This document shows, one piece after another, positions 12,412 through 54,909 of a stretch of DNA of 54,909 bases (positions within the stretch are counted from its first letter, which is position 1; each line of letters begins with the position of its first letter). The DNA lies in NCBI GenBank assembly GCA_024692715.1, contig JAILMH010000049.1:1-54909 (forward strand). The letters run 5' to 3'. This stretch comes from Lachnospiraceae bacterium (GTDB lineage: Bacteria; Bacillota; Clostridia; Lachnospirales; Lachnospiraceae). The position numbers and the translations under genes were made by a program. The notes under the pieces were generated by a model that saw only the letters and a list, made by a program, of their open reading frames with translations, was not told the origin of the DNA and made no database searches.

Positions 12412-12467
12412 AAATCAGGGCTTCACGCTATTAGTAAAAAAAATATAAATTTTTTTTAAAAAAGCTC

Positions 12468-12496
12468 TTGCAATTTTTTGAAAGTAGTCATATAAT
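12468..12496 (+). promoter_or_regulatory. Promoter of the tRNA-Lys/tRNA-Pro unit
   Basis: TTGCAA (12468-12473) and a perfect TATAAT (12491-12496) are 17 bases apart, giving a start near 12503. An A/T-rich stretch directly upstream (12434-12463) could serve as an UP element. Confidence 0.88.
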
Positions 12497-12501
12497 AACA
12501 C

Positions 12502-12522
12502 TTGTCGTCGCGAGGGCGGCAA
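12502..12522 (+). promoter_or_regulatory. +1 hairpin shared with the rRNA operon leader
   Basis: TTGTCGTC (12502-12509) pairs with GGCGGCAA (12515-12522) around a GCGAG loop. The predicted transcript starts at or just inside the stem. Nearly the same sequence is found at the same place after the rRNA promoter (54712-54729). Confidence 0.7.
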
Positions 12523-12553
12523 CAAAGACTTCTTGAAAGAGGTTAGCAAGCAT

Positions 12554-12626
12554 GCGCTTCTAGCTCAGTTGGTAGAGCACCTGACTCTTAATCAGGGTGT
12601 CCAGGGTTCGAGTCCCTGGAGGCGCA
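12554..12626 (+). tRNA. tRNA-Lys (CTT)
   Basis: A 73-base cloverleaf. The acceptor GCGCTTC pairs with GAGGCGC, the D-arm is TAGCTCAGTTGGTAGAGC, the anticodon loop holds CTT between CTGA and TCAG, and the T-arm is CAGGG-TTCGAGT-CCCTG. CCA is not encoded. Confidence 0.96.
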
Positions 12627-12628
12627 CT

Positions 12629-12678
12629 AAAGCACTGGTTTTGTGGATTGTAAGCCATGGGGTCGGTGCTTTTATTTT
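12629..12678 (+). terminator. Terminator-like hairpin between tRNA-Lys and tRNA-Pro
   Basis: A stem of about 10 bp (12629-12638 with 12663-12672, two G-T pairs) is followed by TTTTATTTT. It could lower the output of tRNA-Pro relative to tRNA-Lys, because no separate promoter for tRNA-Pro is evident. Confidence 0.6.
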
Positions 12679-12680
12679 AG

Positions 12681-12754
12681 CGAAGCGTGGCTCAGTTTGG
12701 TAGAGCGCTGCGTTCGGGACGCAGAGGTCGCAGGTTCAAATCCTGTCGCTTCGA
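12681..12754 (+). tRNA. tRNA-Pro (CGG)
   Basis: A 74-base cloverleaf. The acceptor CGAAGCG pairs with CGCTTCG, the anticodon stem is CTGCG/CGCAG around TTCGGGA (anticodon CGG), and the T-arm is GCAGG-TTCAAAT-CCTGT. CCA is not encoded. Confidence 0.95.
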
Positions 12755-54581: not shown

Positions 54582-54676
54582 GCCGTAAGGAGCTGTTAAA
54601 GGAGCAGATTTTCTGTTGTACAGGTTCATGAATGTATAAAACTTAAGACAATTTTATAAAAAAATAAAAATAATTG

Positions 54677-54705
54677 TTGACACCTGTGTTTTGTAGTGGT
54701 ATTAT
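54677..54705 (+). promoter_or_regulatory. Promoter of a ribosomal RNA operon
   Basis: TTGACA (54677-54682) and TATTAT (54700-54705) are 17 bases apart. An A/T-rich block of about 35 bases precedes the -35 (54640-54676), as with UP elements. The start is near 54712. Confidence 0.85.
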
Positions 54706-54909
54706 TACACATGTCGTCGCGAGACGGCAATTAAAAACTCAAAGAAAGCAAGTAAATAAAGGCTTTTTGAGAGAAGAACATTGACAAATAAACAGCAATG
54801 CAACCCTGAAAATTCAGAAGCGTCGAAGAGACGTGAAGAGTTATTCAGAAATGAATGAAACCAAACAGTAAAAAAGGTTTAAGAAAGCGCAAAGCGAAAA
54901 GCTAGTGTT
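54706..54909 (+). other. rRNA operon leader (16S lies beyond the window)
   Basis: The leader begins with a GCGA-capped hairpin (54712-54729). It then has CTCAAA-AAGC (54739 region) pairing with GCTTTTTGAG (54763 region), a GAGAAGAACATTGACAAATAAACAG segment typical of Firmicute rRNA leaders, CGTC-GAAGA-GACG, and ATTCA-GAAA-TGAAT near 54843-54856. The end of the window is near where the mature 16S 5' end would be expected, but the 16S sequence itself is not reached. This accounts for most of the gene-free stretch 54582-54909. Confidence 0.75.
54712..54729 (+). promoter_or_regulatory. +1 hairpin of the rRNA leader
   Basis: TGTCGTC (54712-54718), loop GCGA, GACGGCA (54723-54729): seven pairs including one U-G. 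The partner in front of tRNA-Lys is at 12502-12522. Confidence 0.7.

Follow-up and report, generated by a model that had tools for sequence, protein, structure and literature searches.

Introduction

In E. coli, a hairpin designated boxB lies a few bases past the last promoter of the rrn operons and is followed by boxA, an order of elements that is given in PMC10250234. Stem-loops at the beginning of a transcript were also described as stabilisers of mRNAs, like that of papA, the hairpin added to bla, or the 5' stabilisers of B. subtilis, and both pairing of the extreme 5' end and protection at a distance are treated in PMC3997798. In Bacillota, the rRNA promoters were reported to start with GTP (PMC9304144), and the leader hairpin of the LoaP/dfn system was shown to act in antitermination (PMC12691694).

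This paper deals with the hairpins found at two predicted transcript starts in a window of 54,909 nucleotides (the whole stretch of DNA that was analysed) from a Lachnospiraceae bacterium, one belonging to an rRNA leader and one to a tRNA-Lys/Pro unit. The order of hairpin and boxA-like site in the rRNA leader resembles that of E. coli rrn. However, the stem begins here at the inferred +1 or one to two bases from it, whereas in E. coli the stem behind P2 begins about 3-5 bases in, given the start base that we take P2 to have, and the hairpin also heads tRNA units in which no boxA match is present. With the mRNA stem-loops it shares the paired extreme 5' end; those were described for mRNAs, whereas here the hairpin is a systematic feature of rRNA and of longer tRNA precursors, and mRNA controls remain at chance. 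Like the GTP-initiating promoters of Bacillota, strong promoters of stable RNAs have a G near the predicted start here, but this property is also present in short-leader units without the paired arm and leaves the pairing unexplained. LoaP, in turn, needs a hairpin of the UNCG type, and the two hairpins of the window, which were the ones screened, have no UNCG loop. By computation on these and related sequences, the position of the hairpin, its pairing, the retention of pairing under sequence change and the link to stable RNA, not to mRNA, were established. In searches of the open-licence PubMed Central literature, none of the titles and abstract openings listed described such an element, which is not proof of its being unpublished.

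The Two Predicted Transcript Starts of the Window

Both units lie on the forward strand. The promoter of the tRNA-Lys/Pro unit (12468-12496) consists of TTGCAA at 12468 and TATAAT at 12491-12496, and is followed by the hairpin at 12502-12522, by tRNA-Lys(CTT) at 12554-12627 and by tRNA-Pro(CGG) at 12681-12754. The rRNA promoter (54677-54705) consists of TTGACA at 54677 and TATTAT at 54700-54705, and the hairpin UGUCGUC-GCGA-GACGGCA follows at 54712-54729. The 17-base spacers claimed for both promoters were found. The two hairpins share the 12-mer TGTCGTCGCGAG, located at 12503-12514 and 54712-54723 on the forward strand; in each case six bases separate it from the -10 box, so that both copies start seven bases past this box, in agreement with the placement at +1 by promoter geometry in the original prediction, the +1 being inferred. 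The six bases between the -10 box and the motif have ACAC in common, being TACACA in the rRNA unit (54706-54711) and AACACT in the tRNA unit (12497-12502), and a number of further rRNA leaders from the genus have AACAC or ATCAC between -10 and +1.

Folding of the rRNA copy as a 21-mer gave the seven pairs and the GCGA loop that had been predicted, with -10.1 kcal/mol, and 2 of 200 shuffles were equally good. For the tRNA copy, where eight pairs around GCGAG had been claimed, the 21-mer folds with seven pairs, an eighth, terminal U-A pair being possible (-9.7; none of 200 shuffles was equal). This hairpin can be written as UUGUCGUC-GCGAG-GGCGGCAA or in a second, displaced register that is about as strong. 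In longer context the latter, with UGU/ACA around GUCGC-GAGG-GCGGC, is slightly better (-10.0 versus -9.5), which qualifies the claim. All these energies ignore proteins. The sixth pair is U-A in one copy and U-G in the other, as had been noted.

The contig ends within the rRNA leader, at 54909, and its own 16S gene would lie beyond the contig end. In the homologous leader of a relative (G024, locus L298), 16S motifs are located 588 and 737 nt past the start of the hairpin. A search with the covariance models of Rfam 15 gave no match at E<=1 in 54640-54909 or in 12440-12560, and at gathering scores only tRNAs were matched across the window.

Further downstream, the rRNA leader contains the sequence GAACATTGACAAATA at 54776-54790 on the forward strand, which resembles boxA and to which further leaders from the genus have counterparts in the equivalent position; the assignment is by resemblance only. 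In the tRNA-Lys/Pro leader a second small hairpin is located at 12524-12545 on the same strand; CTTCTTGAAAG inside it narrowly misses the boxA-like pattern seen in rRNA leaders, and TCTTGAAAG of this leader is one letter off that pattern. Between tRNA-Lys and tRNA-Pro, at 12629-12672 (forward strand), a terminator-like hairpin of 18 pairs with a T-rich tail was identified (one found, 0.7 expected in shuffles), for which a role in attenuation or processing is possible.

Occurrence and Position of the 12-mer

The occurrence of the 12-mer is not rare, since with up to two mismatches the window holds 2 matches against 1.55 expected. In the genome of 2.09 Mb, its core GTCGTCGCGAG has 3 matches (reversed control 1), and the overlapping 11-mer TGTCGTCGCGA also has 3 (reversed control 6). 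What is not due to chance is where the copies lie: each of the three in the genome stands at the start of a stable-RNA transcript, and in this genome the motif is thus not placed at random. The third copy, on another contig, starts an rRNA leader with UGUCGUC-GCGA-GGCGACA, in which pair 3 is now U-A and pair 6 is U-G. The 3' arm is altered at both pairs, and pairing stayed despite the change.

Across the remaining genus members (47 genomes), TGTCGTCGCGA was found five times, twice at rRNA starts (L010, L012) and three times elsewhere (L007, L008, L009). When 84,980 species genomes were scanned for TGTCGTCGCGA behind a loosely defined promoter, 54 loci were obtained, among them loci from Lachnospiraceae, Clostridium, Anaerosolibacter, Halanaerobium, Fictibacillus, Paenibacillus and Rothia. 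ARAGORN placed a tRNA directly downstream in 35 of them, and a 16S motif follows in 3. By eye, two more cut-off tRNA-Gly genes, one match to an Anaerosolibacter rRNA leader and two to rRNA leaders of the genus were recognised. By our reading, seven loci show no stable-RNA gene, two have hardly any sequence past the match (L110, L113), and L111 and L150 were left unassigned. Even this one spelling recurs at the starts of stable-RNA units, although its recurrence abroad is conditioned, since the query asked for that sequence.

Another explanation is that a protein recognises a specific site in DNA or RNA that marks the genes of stable RNAs and of which TGTCGTCGCGAG is the best version; the predominance of stable-RNA genes behind the promoter-plus-11-mer matches in distant taxa speaks for it. 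However, the majority of units in these genomes are spelled differently, and 11 of the 54 loci are copies of one Fictibacillus-type locus, which makes such a site very improbable. The 12-mer itself was rejected as the element, since other units spell the hairpin differently. A fixed tetraloop was likewise rejected: GCGA is present in the window, and the loops vary elsewhere.

Hairpins at the Start of rRNA Leaders

Among the rRNA units of the genus, 53 loci were scanned, of which 47 entries had both an anchor and a promoter (the leader of the window being counted twice); 38 of these are distinct. With the start taken seven bases past the -10 box, the first paired base is at +1 or +2 in 35 of the 38, while 17.0 (sd 2.9) would be expected within +1 to +3. 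The mean stem score is 16.3, versus 10.9 (sd 3.6) for shuffles. By hand count, 22 of the 38 start with TGTCG and 8 with YGCGCC. Stem and loop vary, and a boxA-like site comes after the hairpin. Pair +3 is C-G in 12 leaders, U-A in 16 and U-G in 9, and pair +5 is C-G in 14 and G-C in 21, counts that lean towards pairing because the helices are the best for each sequence. Pairing is thus retained under sequence change, as the original prediction had required of relatives. In the genome of the window itself, two more rRNA leaders carry other hairpins in the same position (CGUCGC..GCGACA and UGCGCCGC..). Together, four rRNA leaders of this genome (G000; that at 54712 of the window, L004, L354 and L355) present differing spellings at one place, of the UGUCG, CGUCGC and UGCGCCGC types.

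Outside the genus, 16 16S loci were inspected; a promoter was called by script for 6, and for L414-L416 none was found. In hand-picked rows from other genera of the family, from Clostridium and from Anaerosolibacter, the promoter nearest to 16S starts a blunt hairpin, for example, GUCGC-UUGAGU-GCGAC or GCUGUC-GCUUGA-GGCAGC, which is followed by a boxA-like site. All 12 of the hand-picked leaders, some of them nearly identical, are paired at the start (shuffles 6.1). They were selected as those of the promoters nearest to 16S or boxA; the distal promoters of L066, L125, L162, L180 and L411 and the duplicates L178 and L179 were left out. In the genus leaders and in these rows, the hairpin thus lies downstream of the last rRNA promoter. 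The distal Anaerosolibacter promoter of L125 starts with TGTCGTCGCGAG, yet its transcript is unpaired at +1. Distal rRNA promoters carrying TGTCGTCGCGAG without a local hairpin are present in L125, L156 and L162 (L125 was folded); judged by eye, their start could instead pair with a more distant stretch, ACTTGTTGACA, that overlaps the -35 box of the next promoter. For E. coli rrnB, using what we take to be the start bases of P1 and P2 and the letters of boxB, both transcripts start with stems.

Hairpins at the Start of tRNA Leaders

For the tRNA units, all listed tRNA matches of the genome of the window (48) and of a second genome from another genus of the family (G067; 54) were covered, irrespective of the motif. 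Five genomes from outside the family (G106-G110) contributed some of their units, from hand-picked regions among the tRNA matches listed. A gap rule gave 115 units, which include some tRNAs located within rRNA operons; for 23 of the units no promoter reached a score of 15, and 92 were left. Their leaders, each defined by the best-scoring promoter, are shorter than 15 nt in 28 cases, of 15-17 nt in 6, of 18-130 nt in 52 and longer than 130 nt in 6. Wrong promoters add noise here, and the inferred +1 may be at least one base off. It appears as if two solutions existed, the tRNA leaders being either very short (the 28 of 92) or hairpin-bearing.

In 43 of the 52 leaders of 18-130 nt, from seven genomes, the first paired base of the minimum-energy fold lies at +1 to +3, while 400 dinucleotide shuffles gave a mean of 20.3 (sd 3.3, maximum 31); the sequences are related to different degrees, and shuffle counts are therefore not strict probabilities. 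The other nine leaders are unpaired at the start. After removal of the genome of the window and of the rows with the queried motif, 27 of 35 pair at the start (13.9, sd 2.7, maximum 22). All 14 promoter-called units of the window's genome with such a leader pair at +1 to +3 (shuffles 5.3), mostly with other sequences than the 12-mer, and 12 of 16 do so in G067 (7.0). In both genomes, most units with longer leaders start a hairpin about seven bases past the -10 box. In Rothia 7 of 7 leaders (3.2) and in Clostridium paraputrificum 5 of 5 (1.9) are paired at the start. For Halanaerobium the count is 3 of 5 (1.6), with a mean pairing of +1 to +4 equal to that of shuffles (0.25), and for Fictibacillus 2 of 4 (1.4); the single Paenibacillus leader is unpaired, and the effect is absent from the two Paenibacillus units in the mean-pairing test. 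Of the five genomes outside the family, Rothia and C. paraputrificum therefore show the effect clearly, and in the other three it is weak or absent.

Protein-gene promoters from 400 kb of G067 and from the window, called with the identical scorer, served as controls from these two genomes. Their transcripts show no excess of pairing at the start, neither at full length (24 of 69; shuffles 24.9) nor trimmed to the lengths of tRNA leaders (19 of 69; 20.9). The mean pairing probability of +1 to +4 is 0.61 in 58 tRNA leaders (shuffles 0.32), versus 0.26 in 43 mRNA leaders (0.26). When a 40-nt window was shifted along 37 leaders, the number paired was 11 at -4, 21 at -2, 31 at 0, 29 at +2, 25 at +4, 19 at +8 and 12 at +12, so that the effect peaks at the inferred start.

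The units orthologous to tRNA-Lys in the genus pair at the start in 10 of 13 cases (5.3, sd 1.8; 3 of 200 shuffles reach 10), or in 8 of 10 when only distinct leaders of at least 18 nt are counted (4.5; 6 of 200 reach 8), and a strong uninterrupted start stem (score of at least 12) is present in 6 of the 13. The spellings differ widely. In the genome of the window, tRNA hairpins read TGTCGC..GCGACA, TGCGTC..GACGCA, GTTGCGTC-GGT-GATGCAAC or GTGTTCAC-GTTC-GTGAACGC, and unit starts unlike the 12-mer include TGCGTC.., CGTTGC.. and TGCGCCGC... Fictibacillus tRNA-Lys starts with UGUCGU-GAAAAA-ACGACA and C. paraputrificum tRNA-Leu with UGUCGUU-GAGA-ACGGCA. Among 12 fetched regions of E. coli, a part of its units, all 7 leaders of at least 24 nt pair at the start (shuffles 3.1), a result that is weak alone; a count of 7 was also attained by one or more of the 40 shuffles. 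In Verrucomicrobiae, with a laxer promoter score, 8 of 12 do so (4.5, sd 1.4, maximum 7).

The identity of the two window copies over 12 letters could stem from duplication of a promoter region or from gene conversion, by which an rRNA promoter was copied to a tRNA gene, and a few leaders might then resemble each other by chance or shared ancestry without any function. However, pairing is retained under differing spellings in unrelated units and genera, and the counts from shuffles, shifts and mRNA promoters disfavour this explanation, which is the least probable of those considered here.

A further explanation is that the hairpin serves antitermination or the modification of RNA polymerase, as a boxB-like part of the rrn site or as a put-like RNA with a direct action on the polymerase that is also used in tRNA operons. 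It draws on the order of hairpin and boxA-like site in the rRNA leaders, like that of P2, boxB and boxA in E. coli, on the near miss to the boxA-like pattern in the tRNA-Lys/Pro leader, and on the precedent of LoaP in Bacillota. None of the 52 tRNA leaders matches the boxA-like pattern, however (shuffles 0.6); this pattern is our own and matches 18 of 50 rRNA leaders within the first 45-48 nt, boxA often being located further on. In addition, stems and loops vary, and in its treatment of rrn, PMC10250234 names boxA as necessary and sufficient for factor recruitment and calls boxB puzzling. Antitermination by boxB and boxA as the role common to both kinds of units is held to be unlikely on the basis of the tRNA leaders. 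For rRNA alone, with the hairpin in the place of boxB, it may still apply.

Start Letters and Pairing

The long-leader tRNA units (n=52) have G at the eighth base past the -10 box in 77% and are poor in A (2-6%) from the seventh to the eleventh base, versus 16% G and 35-51% A at mRNA promoters. This composition, together with the excess of YGTYG starts (18 of 58 tRNA versus 2 of 43 mRNA units), which pairing alone does not predict, and with the GTP start described for rRNA promoters of Bacillota (PMC9304144), could mean that the start sequence itself (Y, G, then A-poor) sets the initiation rate, promoter escape or growth-rate control, pairing being secondary. However, in units with leaders shorter than 15 nt the G is retained (59% of 27), but the scarcity of A in the arm is lost (23-40% A at the ninth to eleventh base), and the arm changes while pairing stays. 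The GTP start and the paired 5' end are for this reason separate things, which argues against the arm as an initiation or growth-rate signal and makes this explanation doubtful. We read the G as belonging to the GTP start of the promoter, the start base being inferred, and the arm as belonging to the hairpin. This division fits a need for 5' closure only where no tRNA fold adjoins the 5' end.

A Proposed Closing Hairpin at the 5' End of Stable RNAs

The explanation preferred here, with a probability of about 0.5, is that the element is a 5'-terminal closing hairpin which protects or insulates untranslated transcripts. The first 5-8 nt of rRNA and longer-leader tRNA transcripts would pair with a stretch about 10-25 nt downstream, leaving 0-2 unpaired nt at the 5' end, and the hairpin could form once the RNA exits the polymerase. 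It would most probably hide the 5'-triphosphate end from enzymes requiring a single-stranded 5' end, for which RppH, RNase J in Bacillota and RNase E in E. coli are candidates, and keep the leader from pairing with the structured RNA downstream or with its DNA template. This closure would last until RNase P or rRNA processing removes the leader, and the G near the start would be a separate feature of the promoter, for GTP-dependent initiation. Plain 5' closure is suited by the variation of loops and stem lengths, and pairing was found to begin at nt 1-3 of the primary transcript, as for 5'-terminal stabilising stem-loops, with start sites predicted from the promoters.

Of the roles originally proposed for a shared start element of stable RNAs, a 5'-end stabiliser is hence the best fit, whereas antitermination as the common role was weakened by the lack of boxA-like matches in tRNA leaders, and a growth-rate discriminator or a signal in the start sequence by the composition of the short-leader units. 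The shared element itself proved to be real and wider than two copies; its common feature is a hairpin at the inferred +1 and not the 12-mer.

Protection would bring no obvious benefit, given that rRNA and tRNA are stable in any case and lose their leaders. In the account of PMC10250234, removing boxB from the rrn leader of E. coli made little or no difference; the hairpin is therefore dispensable under the conditions tested there, which counts against any strong role. More tentatively than for the closing hairpin itself, it is suggested that such a hairpin is general to bacterial stable-RNA transcripts and maintained by selection in Bacillota, Actinomycetota and Gammaproteobacteria even as its sequence changes, with rrn boxB as the rRNA version and not a part of the antitermination signal. 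E. coli rrn boxB may then be the local form of the closing hairpin.

If true, this would give a common structural rule for the starts of rRNA and tRNA transcripts, would link tRNA and rRNA leaders through access to the 5' end, and would assign to boxB, which a 2023 paper (PMC10250234) finds puzzling in rrn leaders, a role that can be tested. It would also make the promoters and start sites of stable-RNA genes easier to annotate and help in designing stable untranslated RNAs for laboratory strains. The hairpins of this Lachnospiraceae bacterium, and the similar arrangement in several other bacterial groups, suggest that RNAs which are never translated have a general means of sealing their 5' end.
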